From Pseudoxanthomonas sp. SE1 (GTDB lineage: Bacteria; Pseudomonadota; Gammaproteobacteria; Xanthomonadales; Xanthomonadaceae), in NCBI RefSeq assembly GCF_029542205.1, contig NZ_CP113783.1:3525001-3589000 (forward strand): a stretch of 64,000 nt of DNA. Reading direction: 5' to 3'. The notes below the pieces were generated by a model that was not told where the DNA came from, made no database searches, and saw only the letters and a program-made list of their open reading frames with translations. Within the stretch, counting starts at the first letter, position 1; each line of letters opens with the position of its first letter. Shown in pieces: positions 52,012 through 61,400 of this stretch. Made by a program: the position numbers and the translations under genes.

Positions 52012-52230
52012 TCAGGCGGTGACGGCGGCGACGATGTGGTCGGCGGTGTCGGCGAGGTGGGTGAAGCAGTGGGCCAGGCCGGCGCGGGGGAGGATGAGGT
52101 CGTCGGGGTTCTGGTGTTCGGGGGTGCTGAGCTGGGCCAGCAGGTGCAGGTGGTCGCGCAGGGCCTGCAGTTCGGCGTGGGCTTCGATGGGCAGGTGGTA
52201 GCCGGGGTCGGCGGGCGTTGCGTGCTTCAT
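52012..52230 (-). CDS. XAC0095-like small protein
   Basis: A 72-aa helical protein: PGYHLPIEAHAELQALRDHLHLLAQLS, then LPRAGLAHCFTHLADTADHIVAAV. The pattern (YxLPxxA...LRDHLxLxAxL...CF...A) recalls the Xanthomonas XAC0095-like family. GAAGGATTCGCC precedes ATG 52230. Function is unknown. It is the last chromosomal-composition gene before the AT-richer island. Confidence 0.62.
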   Translation of the reverse strand: MKHATPADPGYHLPIEAHAELQALRDHLHLLAQLSTPEHQNPDDLILPRAGLAHCFTHLADTADHIVAAVTA

Positions 52231-52571
52231 GGCGAATCCTTCCGCGTGCGTGGTGCAAGGCGTGCCTGCGGGCGCGGCGTGCGCCCGCAGGGTGTCGGGA
52301 GGGTCGAAGCTGCAATCAGCCAGCCGGGCGTATTTCCCCGAAGGGTGTTCTATTCCGCCACCCTCCCGACGTAGAACGGACTGCGTCGGAAGTGCCCGAT
52401 GCATTGGGCATAAGAAACCCGCCTGAGTTGCCGGGGCGGGTGCCGCTGATTGCCGGAGATTCGACGCTCCTTGGAGGCAAGTTTGCTTCGGGGATGGCGG
52501 GGTGTCTATTTACATTTTGCACTCAGAGAACAATCACCTTAAAGTCCTATGAACTCGGGGGAGCAAGAAAG
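52231..52571. other. Left boundary region of the AT-richer island
   Basis: A 341-bp gap in which composition changes from high GC (to about 52490) to markedly lower GC. No integrase, tRNA or clear direct repeat marks the junction. The promoter of the 52572 gene must lie in the last 100 bases. Confidence 0.5.
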
Positions 52572-53828
52572 ATGTCGACCATTTCAGCTTGCTGCGCTAA
52601 GGCAGCGACCGAGATCGGGGCCTGGGGGGCCATCTCGCAGACACTGAACTCCTCGTTTGCAAGCGCATTCGTGTCAGCGCTCGCGGGCGCCGCATTTGGT
52701 GTTTGGGGCGCACAGAAACTCTCAGAAAGATCTGCGCGCAGGAGAGAGCTCTTGGAGGCTATGCGACAGACAAATGCAATTGTCGTGTTAGCAGCCACGA
52801 TCGCCAATCAAGCATTGGCGGTAAAGCGTCAACAAGTCGGACCACTGGCGGATAAGTTCTTTGCGGATCGAAAAGTTGCGGAAAACGCATTCGCAGCGCG
52901 CCCGACCGGAGCTCCTCCAACCGGGGTTCATTTCGTTGCCGAACTAACGAAGATAACGCCGCTGACGTTACCTACGGATGCGTTGAAGAACCTTGTATTC
53001 GGCTCTCAGCGCATGCCAGGGCAAGCACTAGCCCTTATTTCGATGGTTGATCAGTCTGCGAATGAGCTTGGAAATGCGATCTCAGTACGATCTGAGTTAA
53101 TTGATAATTTCAAGATCAGGAATCCAACAGACCCTACCTTTATCCAGGACTACTTTGGACTTAAGAGAGCCGATGGTCACACCGATGCCATGTATCACGA
53201 CGCCATGGACGCGATCGTCCAGTACACAAATGACATAGCCTTCTTCGCCGCTGAGCTTGCAGAGGCGCTGCAAGCGCACGGGAGGTTGGTACGGAACGAC
53301 CTGAAAAAATTGGCACCGACCGCTCCAGATGTGAACACGGTTGATTTCGCTGGGCCAAGGGCCTCTGGACTTCTTCCGCCACGCTCTGACTACGCGGCGT
53401 GGCTTTCAGGTATTCAGTCGAAAGGTCACTCAACGGAGAAGAGCATGTCCAAAGTCGATTGGAAGGATCACCAGCGCCGAGCAAACGAGTTGAGTGATGG
53501 GATAAGGCGCTATCTACTTGCGATCAACGCTGGCGGCATCGCCGTCATGTTTGCCCTGGCGGGGGCAATGCTGGAGAACGGAGTTCCGCCGCGTTGGGTC
53601 ATCGTTCCATCTTTACTCTTTGCATCCGGAGTTCTCTTCGTAGGAGTAAGCATGTTCCTCGCGCGAACGCGTGAGATTAGCCGTGAGGAAGCGGCAAGGA
53701 GTGAAGAGCAGCCGCCTTCGTTCTCCAAGTTCATGAAAAGCTCTCCCTACAACAAAGCTAGCCTGGCCGCATTCTTGGCAGCGGTTGTCGCAGGCCTGCG
53801 GGAACTGAGTGGAATTTTGCCTACATGA
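52572..53828 (+). CDS. Membrane-associated protein of unknown function in the SIR2-HerA island
   Basis: A 418-aa protein. A hydrophobic segment lies near residues 25-48 (SSFASAFVSALAGAAFGVWGAQ), then a long soluble helical region (about 50-305), then two helices near 320-345 and 350-370 (AINAGGIAVMFALAGAML; VIVPSLLFASGVLFVGVSMF), a short basic link and a last hydrophobic stretch. GGGGGAG precedes ATG 52572. Codon use and GC fit the island, not the chromosome. It is convergent with herA, 134 bases apart. No family is recognised; it may be a second defence module or an accessory factor. Confidence 0.7.
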   Translation: MSTISACCAKAATEIGAWGAISQTLNSSFASAFVSALAGAAFGVWGAQKLSERSARRRELLEAMRQTNAIVVLAATIANQALAVKRQQVGPLADKFFADRKVAENAFAARPTGAPPTGVHFVAELTKITPLTLPTDALKNLVFGSQRMPGQALALISMVDQSANELGNAISVRSELIDNFKIRNPTDPTFIQDYFGLKRADGHTDAMYHDAMDAIVQYTNDIAFFAAELAEALQAHGRLVRNDLKKLAPTAPDVNTVDFAGPRASGLLPPRSDYAAWLSGIQSKGHSTEKSMSKVDWKDHQRRANELSDGIRRYLLAINAGGIAVMFALAGAMLENGVPPRWVIVPSLLFASGVLFVGVSMFLARTREISREEAARSEEQPPSFSKFMKSSPYNKASLAAFLAAVVAGLRELSGILPT

Positions 53829-53962
53829 AAGGCTGAGTCATCACAGATCTAACATTGGGAGCAGCGGTGCGTGGACGCTGGAGAGTCCTCAAGATCTTCC
53901 GTTGATCCATAACCATCTTAGTTGCAAGAAGCGGTCGGCCCGACGGCAGCGGACTTAACAAG

Positions 53963-55744
53963 TCAGAGCAACCTCGGCCTCCACAAGCTCTCAAGATCGA
54001 CGTCATCGCTGTCCGGCCTCAGCTCCCGACCCATGGGATCTACCTGCAAAACAAGGGGAAGGTCGAAGGCAGTCCCTGTCGCCACACACGCGCCCTGAGA
54101 AAGGCTCGGGATGAGCCCCTTGGATAGTGAATCTAACGTGGTGATCGTGTTGTCGATCAGGAGAAGATCTCGATCATTGACTAATCTATGTATGAAGAAG
54201 TTGTGCAGCTGGGACACAATTGTTGGCGATATGTCAGCCGGCCTTTGACTTGACAGGGTGATGTAGAAGCCAAATTTTCTGCCTTCCTTCACGATCTCCT
54301 CGAACATCTCAAGCCGATAGTCCTTCCAGCTCTCCTGCTCTCTACTCGACTGCTGAGAAAGAATGTTATGAGCCTCATCAATGATGAGAGTGAATGTTCC
54401 ATCTGGAGGCTGCGCTACTCTGGCCCTATGAGCGCCGTAGTAGTGCTTCGCTACGAGCAGTGGAAGGATCTTCTTGACCGCGTTGCTACACCTCTTAAGG
54501 GATATTACGGTAACCGTTTGCTCCCCAACTTCTCCCCGAGCAACCTCTACGACCCTACTTAGCTCAGCAGAGACCGACTCGATCCTCTTAAGAAGAGGCT
54601 GGATGAAATCAAACTGAACATACCCATGCACAAGATCATTAACCAGCTGAAGGTTTGCCCTGATTTGCAGCTGCAAGAATGAATCTAGTTGACTGAGATC
54701 CATCGTTTCCACTGTTGCTGCAAGATGTGCGTCGTAATTTGCGCCATCCGAGTCGAAGTAGACACCTCCGTCTGGACGAAAGAACTTCGAAAATCCGGAA
54801 TGCCAACTGATTCTTTTCAGGGCATCTGAAACTTCGTTTGCACCCAGCAACCTTGCAATAGATCTCAACAAATCCAGCGACTCAGGCCTGGGGCGAGCGG
54901 CACACATCGCCTTTCTGAAAGAAGAGTGTGCGTATCTAGTGAGCGAATCTGCGTTGTTCGCATACCTCGCCCTGCCGAGGACCAATCTATTCAGGAATGG
55001 CTGCTGCGTATTGGGAGTTGCCTGGAAGAGAAGAGCCAATGTCTCCGCACTCCAGAATTCCGACTCTTGCAACTTGAACTTGTCCCCGTTGTCGACGCGA
55101 GTGTTCAAATCGTAGACCGTCTTGGATGCACGAGGAACCAACTGCGCTCCCGTGTACTCGCCATTGAAGTCGATTATTACGAACCTACTGACACCTTCTA
55201 TGGATGCGTACTTTTTCTCAAACAGCGCCGTGTAAAGCTTTGCCAGCGTGTTGGACTTCCCGCTACCCGTATTTCCGAAGATCCCGATGTGCGTATTGAA
55301 CAGGCGCCTCCAGGGCAGCCCCACTTCTATTCCTTCCTTAAGTAGTCTTCCTATTACCACCGCGACACCGGCGTCAGGCTTAGTGAAGATGGTCGAGATC
55401 TGCTCTTCATTAAGAAGCTGAGCCTGATCCTTGATCATGGGCATGAACTTTATGCCCTGAAGAAATTTCCCTGACTCAAAGTATCCGACCGGCCTTACAT
55501 CTACGCGCCTCGTGAAATCTACTCGTACGCCGTCTATCTCGGACTTTTTTTCGTCCAAGTACTCACCCTCGACCAAGCACACGATCTTTCGGAAGCCGCG
55601 CTGTATCGAGATGTACTCTCTTATCGATACGCCTTTGTACTGCTCCCCCTTGTAGAACAGAACTTCGCGATTGGACTCTTCAAATATCTTCAGAGATATT
55701 TTCGTTCCGTTTACTGCGACAACCTCACCAACTACGATCGTCAT
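53963..55744 (-). CDS. herA: HerA-family ATPase/helicase of a SIR2-HerA defence pair
   Basis: A 593-aa hexameric P-loop ATPase. N-terminal HAS-like barrel (residues 1-90; VGEVVAVNGTKISLKI), Walker A GNTGSGKS at 157-164, VIIDFNGEY at about 189-197, Walker B LIIDEAHN at 453-460 and the arginine-bearing SSQRPADIS at 498-506. In SIR2-HerA systems HerA assembles with SIR2 into a large complex needed for phage-triggered NAD+ loss. It starts two bases after the SIR2 stop, so they are one operon. AT-richer than the chromosome. Confidence 0.88.
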   Translation of the reverse strand: MTIVVGEVVAVNGTKISLKIFEESNREVLFYKGEQYKGVSIREYISIQRGFRKIVCLVEGEYLDEKKSEIDGVRVDFTRRVDVRPVGYFESGKFLQGIKFMPMIKDQAQLLNEEQISTIFTKPDAGVAVVIGRLLKEGIEVGLPWRRLFNTHIGIFGNTGSGKSNTLAKLYTALFEKKYASIEGVSRFVIIDFNGEYTGAQLVPRASKTVYDLNTRVDNGDKFKLQESEFWSAETLALLFQATPNTQQPFLNRLVLGRARYANNADSLTRYAHSSFRKAMCAARPRPESLDLLRSIARLLGANEVSDALKRISWHSGFSKFFRPDGGVYFDSDGANYDAHLAATVETMDLSQLDSFLQLQIRANLQLVNDLVHGYVQFDFIQPLLKRIESVSAELSRVVEVARGEVGEQTVTVISLKRCSNAVKKILPLLVAKHYYGAHRARVAQPPDGTFTLIIDEAHNILSQQSSREQESWKDYRLEMFEEIVKEGRKFGFYITLSSQRPADISPTIVSQLHNFFIHRLVNDRDLLLIDNTITTLDSLSKGLIPSLSQGACVATGTAFDLPLVLQVDPMGRELRPDSDDVDLESLWRPRLL

Positions 55745-55746
55745 CG

Positions 55747-56898
55747 TCAGCCCCTCAAACTCTGCTCTGGCGCCGCGACCTCTGCACCTACCTGCTTAAG
55801 CGAGAGAACTGATTCATTGAACGCAGTGAAGGTGAGTTTCTTTCCGTCCGGAAGAAGAATGAATCGGACGTTCGGATGCATGCCTAGAATTGGCGCTAGA
55901 CGGTTATATTCCGCCTCGTCAAAGCAACACACATAGACCTGTAGCTTCGGGTTCGACAATGATCTCTTGACGAGATTCAGTATGTGCTCGTCAGCGAAGG
56001 AGAATCCAAAGGTGATAAGAACCGAGTTCGGCCTCTCTAGCTCGTAGCTAAGCATCCTGAGCATTTGATAGTAGTGCTCTTCAAACACAGTCTCATGAAA
56101 CTTCCACTTCGTGGGATTTACGATCGGGAGCTTCTTATACTCCCGCATGAATTCTTCGGTTTCATCTTCCTCAAATTCCGGCGCAACAAGGTCGTCCGAA
56201 CTTAGCTCGTCGTCCATCAGCGATGTTGAGAACGGCCGTAGGCGCTCAAGTAGGCCTTCGCCAAGCACGGGTCCCGGAAGCTTGTTTCGATAGTCAACTA
56301 GGATCGACTGATCTCGTCTTCTCCAATGTACCGAACCATGAATGTGGACAAGATTGATTTGAGGGATTGAAACCATTTCTCTTTCAAAGATTCCGGTCTG
56401 CGAGGTGATCGTACTGAAGTTCTTTGCCTGCAAGCGCCTGGTCTGAAACCCACTCGTTCCGTCGTTGAGTAGAAATTCAATCACGCCGCTCTCTATCAGT
56501 TCGTCAGCCACGATCGATATGCACGGATCATAGTTCGTTGTAAACACATTGCACCTCCTGTCAGGACTCCTCCTCATCGACAGGACGTGAAATATTGTGA
56601 GCAGTAGCTTCTTGTAGTTCGCTAGCACTAACTCCTTATCTACGTCACCCTGAATGTCGGCACGCGATAGTGTCATCGCTGGTAGCACACATTCTTTGTA
56701 GTAGTGCATGAACAGTGCGGAGAGCTTTGCATCATCTTCGCCGAAGCTTGTCGCGAGGGTTTCGATGGTGCACGTCTCATCGAGCTCATCTTTGATGGAT
56801 AGAGCAAGGGTTGGTAGGACTCCAAAAGAGGCTCCTGAGCCAATCAAGAAGCTCAAGTTCTTGTCGTAGACGGCAGCAAGCTTTATCTCTCGATCCAT
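55747..56898 (-). CDS. sir2: SIR2-domain NADase of a SIR2-HerA (Nezha-like) defence pair
   Basis: A 383-aa SIR2-family protein. NAD-binding FLIGSGAS (17-24), catalytic Asn in TTNYD (N122) and catalytic His in HIHGS (H187) are present; GFSFADEHI (297-305) matches the usual C-terminal motif. No zinc cysteines of deacetylase sirtuins, as expected for NAD+-hydrolysing effectors. AAGGAG abuts the first ATG (56904), so the second (56898), six bases after it, is chosen. It forms an operon with herA. Phage defence is inferred from the gene pair, not from this locus. Confidence 0.88.
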   Translation of the reverse strand: MDREIKLAAVYDKNLSFLIGSGASFGVLPTLALSIKDELDETCTIETLATSFGEDDAKLSALFMHYYKECVLPAMTLSRADIQGDVDKELVLANYKKLLLTIFHVLSMRRSPDRRCNVFTTNYDPCISIVADELIESGVIEFLLNDGTSGFQTRRLQAKNFSTITSQTGIFEREMVSIPQINLVHIHGSVHWRRRDQSILVDYRNKLPGPVLGEGLLERLRPFSTSLMDDELSSDDLVAPEFEEDETEEFMREYKKLPIVNPTKWKFHETVFEEHYYQMLRMLSYELERPNSVLITFGFSFADEHILNLVKRSLSNPKLQVYVCCFDEAEYNRLAPILGMHPNVRFILLPDGKKLTFTAFNESVLSLKQVGAEVAAPEQSLRG

Positions 56899-56946
56899 GC
56901 GCATCTCCTTGCACTAGGGCATTCGCCTTTGGCGGCTTTGCAAAAG

Positions 56947-56970
56947 AAAAGGGGCTCTCGCGAGCCCCTT
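56947..56970 (-). terminator. Terminator of the nrdJb transcript
   Basis: Stem AAGGGGCT/AGCCCCTT around CTCGCGAG (56949-56970), followed on the minus strand by TTCTTTTG. It separates the ribonucleotide reductase genes from the SIR2-HerA operon. Confidence 0.85.
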
Positions 56971-57012
56971 CGTAGATTCTGACGACCTCTTATAAGAGGA
57001 TTGAGTCATGCA

Positions 57013-57846
57013 TCACCCGCACTTCGAATAACCACAGTTCAAACACGTCGCACACCCGTCCATGATGACGAGGGCCTTGGTGCTGCACTTGTGGCAGAGC
57101 GTGGCGGAGGGCGGGAAGCTGGCGCCATCGCCGGTCACGGCGATGTCTTCCGAAGAGCCAGGGACCGCGCTGCCCCCATCTGCCCTTCGGGCATCTTCCC
57201 CCGCGATGGCGGGGGAAGAGGGAGTTGCGCTTACGTCAGCGTTTTTTTTTGCGCGGTCTTCGTACTGCTTGCGCTTCTCGGCCAGGATGGCGCGCTGGTG
57301 CGCGCTTATTTCCGGGTCGTGGATCAGGCCGATCGACTTCATGTGCTCTTCCACGATGGCGCCCAGCTCGGCCACCAGCGACGGCATGTACACGCCACCG
57401 GCCTTGAAGTAGCCACCGCGCGGATCGAACACGGCCTTCATCTCGTCCACCAGGAACGTCACGTCGCCGCCCTTGCGGAACACCGCGCTCATGATGCGCG
57501 TCAGCGCCACGATCCACTGGAAGTGCTCCATGGACTTGCTGTTGACGAAGATCTCGAACGGACGGCGCAACTCATGCTCCGTGCCCGCGTTCAACACGAT
57601 GTCGTTGATGGTCACGTACATGGCGTGCTCCACCAGCGGCGACTTGATCTTGTAGGTGCTGCCGATGAGGACTTCCGGGCGCTCGATGCGCTCGTGCATC
57701 TGGATGATGTTGTCCTGCGGCGTTTCCTTTTCCACCGTCTCGCGCGCCACCGACGCCGTGGGAATCAGCGCAGCGGCTTCGCGCGCCTTGTCTTCCGGGG
57801 TGAGCACGCTGTAGCCCTTGATTTTCTTGTCGATCTTGACGGCCAT
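57013..57846 (-). CDS. nrdJb: B12-dependent ribonucleotide reductase, C-terminal subunit (NrdJb)
   Basis: The C-terminal part of a split class II ribonucleotide reductase, as in Pseudomonas NrdJb. It has the TSCPD-type domain (SPLVEHAMYVTINDIVLNAGTEHELRRPFEIFVNSKSMEHFQW) and the C-terminal redox tail with CHKC and CATCLNCGYSKCG, which should re-reduce the NrdJa active site. At 277 aa it is longer than usual: about 40 residues before the tail are encoded by an inserted palindromic repeat. A run of nine A (minus strand) encodes KKN just upstream of the insert. Confidence 0.85.
   Translation of the reverse strand: MAVKIDKKIKGYSVLTPEDKAREAAALIPTASVARETVEKETPQDNIIQMHERIERPEVLIGSTYKIKSPLVEHAMYVTINDIVLNAGTEHELRRPFEIFVNSKSMEHFQWIVALTRIMSAVFRKGGDVTFLVDEMKAVFDPRGGYFKAGGVYMPSLVAELGAIVEEHMKSIGLIHDPEISAHQRAILAEKRKQYEDRAKKNADVSATPSSPAIAGEDARRADGGSAVPGSSEDIAVTGDGASFPPSATLCHKCSTKALVIMDGCATCLNCGYSKCG
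57181..57219. repeat. Palindromic repeat inserted in the nrdJb reading frame
   Basis: TGCCC/GGGCA (57181-57193) is followed by TCTTCCCCCGC/GCGGGGGAAGA (57194-57219, 11-bp stem). The same kind of stem is present between genes at 58670-58690 and in the CCCCTCTCCC elements. Here it is translated in frame as part of nrdJb. Confidence 0.8.
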
Positions 57847-58998: not shown

Positions 58999-61149
58999 TC
59001 AGAACTTGCCGTAATACCCTTCCTTCAACGCATCGAACAGGTTGGCGGCGGTGTGCATTTCGCCGTCGTACTCGATCTGCTCGTTGCCCTTCACTTCGAT
59101 GACGTTGCCGTCTTCCAGCTCGAAGCGGTAGGTGGTGTTCTCCAGGTCGGCTTCCTTCACCAGCACGCCCTGGAAGGCGGCCGGGTTGAAGCGGAACGTG
59201 GTGCAGCCCTTCAGGCCCTGCTGGTGAGCGTAGCGGTAGATGTCCTTGAACTGCTCGTACGGGTAGTCCGTGGGCACATTGGCGGTCTTGGAGATGGAGC
59301 TGTCCACCCACTTCTGCGCGGCGGCCTGCACGTCGACGTGCTCCTTCGGGCTGATGTCGTCGGCGGCGATGAAGTACTCCGGCAGCTTGGCGTCGGCGTC
59401 GTCCGAGAACGGCATGGCCTTGGGATTGACCAGTTCGCGGTAGGCCAGCAGCTCGTACGACCAGACGTCGACCTTTTCCTTGGACTTCTTGCCTTCGCGG
59501 ATCACGTTGCGGCTGTAGTGGTGCGCGAACGAGGGCTCGATGCCGTTGGAGGCGTTGTTGGCCAGCGACAGGCTGATGGTGCCGGTGGGCGCGATGGAGC
59601 TGTGGTGGGTGAAGCGGCTGCCGACTTCGGCCAGCTCGTCCACCAGGTCGGGGGCGACGCTGGCCACGCGCTGCATGTAGCGGCTGTACTTGGCGTGCAG
59701 CACCTTGCCGGGGATCTCCTGGCCGACCTTCCAGCCGTCCTTCGCCATTTCCGGGCGCTGGCGCAGCATGGCGGCGGTGACGGTGAACAGCTCGTCCATG
59801 ATGGGCGCGGCGCCCTTTTCCTTCGCCAGGGCCAGGCCCATTTCCCAGCCGGCCACGGCCATCTCGCGGGCGATGGCCTCGGTGAACTCGCAGGAGGCCG
59901 GGCTGCCGTACTTGTGCTTGAGCATGGTCAGCGTGCTGCCCAGGCCCAGGAAACCCATGCCGTGGCGGCGCTTGCGCAGGATCTCGGCGCGCTGCTGTTC
60001 CAGCGGCAGGCCGTTCACTTCGACCACGTTGTCGAGCATGCGGGTGAACACGCGCACGACTTCCTTGTATTCCTCCCAGTCGAAGCGCGCCTGGTCGGTA
60101 AAGGGGTCGCGCACGAAGGTGGTCAGGTTGACCGAGCCCAGCAGGCAGGCGCCGTAGGGCGGCAGGGGCTGTTCGCCGCACGGGTTGGTGGCGCGGATGG
60201 TTTCGCACCACCAGTTGTTGTTCATCTCGTTGACGCGGTCGATCAGGATGAAACCCGGCTCGGCGTAGTCGTACGTGGACACCATGATCATGTCCCACAG
60301 GTGGCGCGCGCGGATGTGGCCGTAGATCTTGCAGGCCACCAGACCGTCGTCGCGGACGATGTAGTTCTTGTGGGTGGGCCACTCGCGCCAGACGACCTGG
60401 GCGGCGTCCTCGACGTCGATGTCGCCCTTCTCCTTGATGTTCACCGGGAACACCAGCGGCCAGTCGGCGTCGGTGTCCACGGCTTCCATGAAGCCGTCGG
60501 TGATCAGCAGGGACAGGTTGAACTGGCGCAGGCGGCCGTCTTCGCGCTTGGCGCGGATGAAGTCCTTGACGTCCGGGTGGGAGATTTCGAACGTGCCCAT
60601 CTGCGCGCCACGGCGGCCACCGGCGGAGGACACGGTGAAGCACATCTTGTCGTAGATATCCATGAAGGACATCGGGCCGGAGGTGTACGCACCGGCGCCG
60701 GCGACGAAGGCGCCCTTGGGGCGCAGCGTGCTGAACTCGTAGCCGATGCCGCAGCCGGCCTTGAGGGTCAGGCCGGCTTCGTGGACCTTGTCCAGGATGC
60801 CGTCCATCGAGTCCTCGATGGTGCCGGACACGGTGCAGTTGATGGTGCTGGTGGCCGGCTTGTGCTGCTGGGCGCCGGCGTTGGAGGTGATGCGGCCGGC
60901 GGGAATGGCCCCGCGGCGCAGCGCCCACACGAAGCGCTCGTACCAGTAGGCGCGCTTTTCCGGGGTGGCTTCGGCGTCGGCCAGGGCACGGGCCACGCGC
61001 TGGTAGGTGCCATCGATGTCGGCGTCCAGGGCGTCGCCCTGCTTCGTCTTCAGCCGGTACTTCTTGTCCCAGATGTCCTGGGATGCCGGTTGCATGGGAA
61101 TCAGGGCAGGCTGTTCCGTCTTGACCGCCTCAAGGCGCACCGTACTCAT
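58999..61149 (-). CDS. nrdJa: Adenosylcobalamin-dependent ribonucleotide reductase, catalytic subunit (NrdJa)
   Basis: Class II ribonucleotide reductase reducing ribonucleotides to deoxyribonucleotides with adenosylcobalamin, oxygen-independent. It has 716 aa. Visible are the first active-site cysteine in TSTINCTVSGTI, the catalytic NPCGEQPLPPYGACLLGSVNLT (thiyl Cys and Glu), SSIAPTGTISLSL and the C-terminal end LKEGYYGKF. The redox tail is on nrdJb, 1.1 kb downstream, with a histone-like gene between. AGGAGA lies 11 bases before ATG 61149. NrdR-type boxes lie upstream. Confidence 0.93.
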   Translation of the reverse strand: MSTVRLEAVKTEQPALIPMQPASQDIWDKKYRLKTKQGDALDADIDGTYQRVARALADAEATPEKRAYWYERFVWALRRGAIPAGRITSNAGAQQHKPATSTINCTVSGTIEDSMDGILDKVHEAGLTLKAGCGIGYEFSTLRPKGAFVAGAGAYTSGPMSFMDIYDKMCFTVSSAGGRRGAQMGTFEISHPDVKDFIRAKREDGRLRQFNLSLLITDGFMEAVDTDADWPLVFPVNIKEKGDIDVEDAAQVVWREWPTHKNYIVRDDGLVACKIYGHIRARHLWDMIMVSTYDYAEPGFILIDRVNEMNNNWWCETIRATNPCGEQPLPPYGACLLGSVNLTTFVRDPFTDQARFDWEEYKEVVRVFTRMLDNVVEVNGLPLEQQRAEILRKRRHGMGFLGLGSTLTMLKHKYGSPASCEFTEAIAREMAVAGWEMGLALAKEKGAAPIMDELFTVTAAMLRQRPEMAKDGWKVGQEIPGKVLHAKYSRYMQRVASVAPDLVDELAEVGSRFTHHSSIAPTGTISLSLANNASNGIEPSFAHHYSRNVIREGKKSKEKVDVWSYELLAYRELVNPKAMPFSDDADAKLPEYFIAADDISPKEHVDVQAAAQKWVDSSISKTANVPTDYPYEQFKDIYRYAHQQGLKGCTTFRFNPAAFQGVLVKEADLENTTYRFELEDGNVIEVKGNEQIEYDGEMHTAANLFDALKEGYYGKF

Positions 61150-61400
61150 GGTTGTGTTGTTCTCCTGAAAACGACTGGAACTATTCAATGGCTGTGGCGG
61201 ACGGACCAAGGCCCGCCCCGGTGTTTCATCACGGACCCGGACGGCAGGGACGACGCTGCGGGCGGCTGCAGAAGCTGCGCCGCGCCGGTGGCCGGATTGT
61301 GGAAGTGGGACCTGCCGTTGCCATGGTGCCCACTGCTTCCCTCGCCCTCATGCGCCAATCCCCAAAGGCGCCCGATTTCCCAAGCGTAAAGCCCGAAAAA

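Follow-up and report, generated by a model that had tools for sequence, protein, structure and literature searches.

Does the SIR2-HerA gene pair of Pseudoxanthomonas sp. SE1 form an anti-phage system, and how does it come to lie beside the ribonucleotide reductase gene nrdJb? We addressed this question in a window of 64,000 nucleotides (NZ_CP113783.1, positions 3,525,001 to 3,589,000), in which a preliminary description had proposed a SIR2-HerA (Nezha-type) defence operon and had left its arrival open. The results favour, with a probability of about 0.82, a two-gene SIR2-HerA anti-phage operon that at present fills a chromosomal slot bordered by nrdJb on one side and sRNA-Xcc1/XAC0095 on the other, with cargo exchanged via the flanks of this slot.

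Both open reading frames (ORFs) were found as first described, with SIR2 (383 aa) directly upstream of HerA (593 aa) on the minus strand and a gap of two bases between them (55745-55746). The surrounding region was also AT-richer, as claimed, with a guanine-cytosine (GC) content of 0.517 for 52400-57100 compared to a 1-kb mean of 0.669 and a minimum of 0.585 elsewhere in the window (115 segments). The SIR2 protein matched the PADLOC model PDLC04089 (E 1.3e-52) and the Pfam family SIR2_2 (E 9.4e-8, above the curated cut-off). When the protein was aligned with solved chains by phmmer and by profile, N122 (codon 56533-56535, in FTTNYD) and H187 (codon 56338-56340, in HIHGSVHW) paired with N168 and H227 of E. 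coli SIR2 8j4u (residue numbers counted by hand from the alignment), and both were invariant in 53/53 aligned sequences, comprising the window protein and 52 of 120 listed database relatives. The residues of the predicted nicotinamide adenine dinucleotide (NAD+) hydrolase (NADase) site were intact, and their misalignment with NADase members, which the preliminary description had named as fatal to its proposal, was not observed. According to PMC11559045, the active site of V. cholerae SIR2 has residues of the same numbers, N168 and H227; alanine at these residues abolished immunity to ICP1, ICP2 and ICP3, and deletion of herA increased plaquing of the same three phages. The AlphaFold2 (AF2) model of the window SIR2 had a predicted local distance difference test (pLDDT) score of 88, and a structural search placed its fold nearest to the SIR2 subunits of SIR2-HerA systems, well above sirtuins. 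A total of 2283 proteins matched SIR2 at E<=0.001, not all of which necessarily belong to the same SIR2-HerA group. Two starts are available, the first in-frame ATG at 56904 (385 aa) and the second at 56898 (383 aa); on our reading of the sequence the latter is preferable, because AAGGAG abuts ATG 56904 but has good spacing to ATG 56898.

HerA matched the PADLOC model PDLC04097 over nearly the entire protein (E 1.2e-170) and Pfam DUF87 HerA above its curated cut-off (E 1.7e-16). The complete P-loop set reported earlier was confirmed: Walker A (GNTGSGKS, residues 157-164, 55253-55276) and Walker B (IIDEAH, residues 454-459, with DEAH at 54368-54379) were intact, and the Walker residues were invariant in 32/32 aligned sequences, the window's included. 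Among the HerA proteins of related loci, Walker A was present in 47/48 and Walker B in 45/48, the misses being frames with at least 23 stops.

The two genes also travel together. SIR2 adjoined HerA in 47/50 related loci from GTDB species genomes, whose hosts, by record titles, are Gamma-, Beta- and Alphaproteobacteria, with Firmicutes at 32-43% HerA identity. Clustering of the flanking ORFs took in 45 of these 50 loci plus the window, some with short flanks (453 ORFs, 46 loci), and the most widespread families reached 4 loci at most, 3 of those 4 being Legionella; as far as this clustering shows, the unit therefore consists of two genes. Within the genus, 3/37 other genomes contained any match to the window HerA, all partial and 23-38% identical, a patchy occurrence that is consistent with horizontal gain. 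The order of the genes, their catalytic residues, the fold and the co-occurrence as a pair all support a SIR2-HerA system in the broad sense, and there is good evidence, short of experiment, that the operon is a divergent new member.

The Nezha/SIR2-HerA systems of E. coli (8j4u, 8sub, 8su9) and V. cholerae A103 resemble the window pair in their two genes, catalytic Asn/His and HerA Walker motifs, and were among its best structural matches. E. coli Nezha differs in its SIR2 chain of 415 aa, compared to 383 aa here, and in sequence (about 20% identity), the complex and activity of the window pair being predicted. The SIR2-HerA entries 8yhx/8yho and 8wld/8w9l (PsSIR2) are likewise not close relatives, because their identity to the window proteins is about 20%. 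The HerA-DUF4297 defence complexes (8ziq, 9c1n) contain a HerA ATPase related to the window's, which is partnered, per entry titles, with a DUF4297 protein instead of SIR2.

SIR2 and HerA were each modelled alone as single chains. The E. coli SIR2:HerA assembly is a large 12:6 complex. By analogy with solved relatives (see also PMC11559045), HerA would form a ring ATPase on which SIR2 multimerises. SIR2 would be turned on by a trigger of phage origin, probably some DNA structure on which HerA acts; active SIR2 would then hydrolyse NAD+, and the infected cell would halt before phage release.

We next turn to the place in which the operon lies. With one genome compared per species, nrdJb was found in 35/38 genus genomes, the own genome included. 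The first kb after nrdJb fell into 30 clusters among 34 loci, counting the window (four clusters of two loci, all others singletons; tblastx E<=1e-10), whereas the control flanks formed 1 cluster each, namely the kb before nrdJb (33 loci) and either side of a degQ-like gene (30 loci each). When up to 1.5 kb after nrdJb was used, 31 clusters were obtained among 35 loci, with the same four pairs. Mean GC in the genus set was 0.520 in the first kb after nrdJb compared to 0.630 in nrdJb itself, and GC<=0.58 in this kb occurred in 31/34 genus loci compared to 14/27 loci from other Xanthomonadaceae genera. The interval is a hypervariable slot with a conserved nrdJb-side flank. The question of arrival is thereby answered in part: the pair is local cargo of this slot downstream of nrdJb.

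The borders were located by blastn of the window against 15 relatives. The nrdJb homology ended at its stop codon, and left-side homology restarted at 52516-52517 in 5/15 relatives (L102, L106, L110, L111, L113). Junction alignments were displayed for 10 loci on the right, all of which break at the stop codon of nrdJb, and for 6 on the left, whose edges agree to within 1 base. No common sequence was visible on the cargo side of the displayed loci. Matches to sRNA-Xcc1 were present in 22 genomes; 16 of these had one downstream of nrdJb, 15/16 in the nrdJb direction (positions compared by eye from two tables). The distance to nrdJb was within about 11 kb in 14/16; the other two lay farther off, one about 14 kb and one about 21 kb away, and both were below the Rfam cut-off. 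The own genome has 1 match, compared to as many as 10 in a genus member (G036), which points to possible mobility of the element.

Defence cargo was assessed with PADLOC on 40 chosen ORFs, defined by a longest-ORF rule instead of a gene finder, from 30/34 relative loci (all except L132, L133, L140 and L141). At E<=1e-40, a line set after the results were seen, 13/40 ORFs in 9/30 loci matched (Table 1) compared to 0/10 proteins of a small, hand-picked control (7 from the window, 3 near the integron described below; best control 1.4e-33). The PDC names in Table 1 are PADLOC candidates and not proven systems. These results suggest that Pseudoxanthomonas species keep different cargos in the slot, several of which would be defence systems. 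A 1186-aa ORF in another slot (L108:3188-6748, minus strand) was ThsA-like at residues 2-246 (E 3.9e-28) and also matched LmuA (E 1.3e-24); it is possibly another SIR2-type effector in the same slot, in opposite orientation. Judged by their translations, transposase-like ORFs lie within the slot cargo of one genome (L114 9460-11163, plus strand). The core defence hotspots cDHS1/cDHS2 of P. aeruginosa, described in PMC10250203, likewise combine constant core flanks with varied defence cargo; they too have a flanking non-coding RNA and, in cDHS1, lower GC, and are tied to no single mobile-element group. The present slot differs in having the stop codon of nrdJb as one of its borders, in its genus, Pseudoxanthomonas, and in being compared from a single genome per species. 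Among the matches listed from the open-access literature, no paper on an nrdJ-linked defence hotspot was found, which is not proof of absence.

Table 1. Features of the slot region in the window, followed by strong PADLOC matches in the corresponding slots of relatives.
Feature	Position	Strand	Evidence
XAC0095-family small gene, left border	52012..52230	(-)	NCBIfam NF047335, 61.1 bits (cut-off 34)
sRNA-Xcc1 RNA (RF02221), left border region	52286..52370	(-)	61 bits vs gathering 53; only match in own genome
Variable cargo interval	52518..57012		blastn vs 15 relatives; junction alignments
Membrane-like ORF, 418 aa, second cargo gene, convergent to HerA	52572..53828	(+)	Database search
HerA/DUF87 ATPase, 593 aa	53963..55744	(-)	PADLOC; DUF87; Walker residues; fold search
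SIR2, 383 aa, predicted NADase	55747..56898	(-)	PADLOC; aligned catalytic residues; AF2 model; structural matches
Intrinsic-terminator-like hairpin between nrdJb and SIR2	56948..56971	(-)	Terminator scan
nrdJb, encoding the TSCPD (C-terminal) portion of the split B12-dependent ribonucleotide reductase; right slot border, conserved	57013..57846	(-)	Pfam TSCPD; NrdJb-named proteins in Pseudoxanthomonas
nrdJa, large ribonucleotide reductase gene upstream of nrdJb	58999..61209	(-)	Pfam Ribonuc_red_lgC, E 1.2e-127; listed ORF extent, start may lie further in
Drt3b	L102 slot		PADLOC E<=1e-40
PDC-S33, PDC-S20	L103 slot		PADLOC E<=1e-40
PDC-S06	L104 slot		PADLOC E<=1e-40
PDC-M36A	L105 slot		PADLOC E<=1e-40
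DarG, PDC-S42	L107 slot		PADLOC E<=1e-40
PtuA	L110 slot		PADLOC E<=1e-40
Phospholipase effector and oligonucleotide cyclase; CBASS-like (cyclic oligonucleotide-based antiphage signalling system) by our own reading	L111 slot		PADLOC E<=1e-40
LmuA, LmuB	L124 slot		PADLOC E<=1e-40
Type I methyltransferase	L131 slot		PADLOC E<=1e-40

At E<=0.001 the 418-aa ORF in the same interval matched 36 proteins of the database, one of them the ORF's own entry, and in PADLOC it matched only a Cas11-like model, weakly (E 0.0078). Over residues 15-284 it shared 59% identity with P0123, an uncharacterised protein of 281 aa that has no counterpart of the C-terminal part of the ORF. As a third SIR2-HerA component it was rejected, since tblastn (E<=1e-5) gave no match in loci L003-L071, including the SIR2-HerA loci L022-L071; it might represent a further small module within the cargo.

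The orientation of the cargo raises the matter of its expression. The first ORF of at least 100 aa was co-directional with nrdJb in 26/34 loci (one-sided binomial 0.0015) and began at most 150 bp from nrdJb in 24/34. A terminator-like hairpin followed nrdJb in at least 7/35 loci, the window among them, compared to a mononucleotide-shuffle mean of 0.38; in L126 and L127 hairpins missed by the scan were visible by eye. A wider proposal, which we regard as doubtful, is that in Pseudoxanthomonas the nrdJb 3' end serves specifically as a docking place for defence modules. Cargo would follow directly on the stop codon, for the most part co-directionally, and much of it might be read as the tail of the reductase transcript, coupling defence to the supply of deoxynucleoside triphosphates; it would be exchanged without a recombinase via nrdJb and, where present, the sRNA-Xcc1/XAC0095 flank. 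The transcript part is suggested by the co-directional first ORFs, by their closeness to nrdJb and by the small number of loci in which a hairpin was found. The window is not a clean example of reductase read-through, since its terminator argues for a separate SIR2 promoter.

The route of arrival was examined from several sides. In agreement with the preliminary description, none of the 3 long ORFs in the interval matched an integrase family (Pfam, PADLOC, NCBIfam). The genome does carry a chromosomal integron about 1 Mb from the slot (G000:C1, approximately 2.549-2.557 Mb, L150), with a full-length IntI (474.8 bits) and at least 15 attC sites, and PMC12444791 places sRNA-Xcc1, which stands at the slot border, on Xanthomonas integron cassettes with symE. 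Both points would fit arrival of the operon as a gene cassette of this integron. We nevertheless hold that route to be highly improbable: an attC covariance model built from 7 native sites, which recovered 15 in the integron stretch (those 7 included), matched nothing at E<=1, either in the window or in the 8 other slot loci searched. An attC remnant suspected by eye at about 53850-53962 was rejected, as pattern search, regular-expression scan and covariance model all gave it no support; the regular-expression scan returned one chance-like pair (53428-53495), inside an ORF. Integrase-type insertion at the nrdJb 3' end was rejected as well, for the 0.3-14 kb searched downstream (57 kb in the window): the longest exact match there to the last 80 bases of nrdJb was 7-13 bases in 35/35 loci, a length that looks like chance, judged without a shuffle, although a repeat farther away may exist. 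Because neither attC sites in the window and 8 slot loci nor an nrdJb end repeat in the searched stretches were found, homologous recombination between the conserved flanks would be the simplest remaining route, and we infer it on that ground; the discussion of PMC10250203 names the same possibility for cDHS1/cDHS2.

Two further explanations concern function, and both appear improbable. In one, the operon has decayed or fallen silent and persists as a passenger only because it arrived recently. The terminator directly upstream of SIR2 would fit this, as would the lack of a sigma-70-type promoter match in 52300-57200, terminator-SIR2 gap included, in a scan confined to that promoter type; yet both genes are full length, and all tested catalytic residues are intact and inside the family's invariant set. 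Marginally less probable still is that the two genes serve genome maintenance and not defence, with HerA as a translocase in DNA repair and SIR2 as an NAD+-dependent enzyme of a different type, such as an ADP-ribosyl transferase or a deacylase. Against this stand the structural ranking far above sirtuins, the absence of a recurrent third gene family beside the operon, its patchy occurrence in the genus and the other defence systems occupying the same slot. The anti-phage reading has its own points against it, among them the missing promoter match. SIR2 (70.3 bits, cut-off 500) and HerA (112.3, cut-off 800, and 118.3, cut-off 850) fell below the curated cut-offs of the NCBIfam equivalogs for narrow Nezha (NF042942, NF042943, NF042944), and identity to any solved SIR2-HerA member was about 20%; the earlier "Nezha-type" label thus holds for the broad SIR2-HerA class and does not hold in the narrow sense. 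The HerA model was of moderate confidence (pLDDT 77), and of the structural comparison proposed earlier only the SIR2 half pointed to SIR2-HerA systems, as the HerA fold search did not single out SIR2-partnered HerAs. The remaining relatives had a different or more distant far border, the left edge being common to only 5/15. At E<=1e-5, 24/40 slot proteins (20/30 loci) matched PADLOC models, but so did 2/10 controls. No strong match was obtained in 21/30 loci, for the proteins scanned, and the term "defence hotspot" therefore rests on 9 loci and the window.

As part of a divergent, widespread SIR2-HerA group without a close solved relative, the operon would be useful for testing which SIR2-HerA features are general. 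The uncharacterised genes of the slot are candidate new defence systems, because known defence systems sit beside them. The slot is the more useful result, since its position is constant and simple to search for in Pseudoxanthomonas genomes and perhaps also in those of other Xanthomonadaceae.
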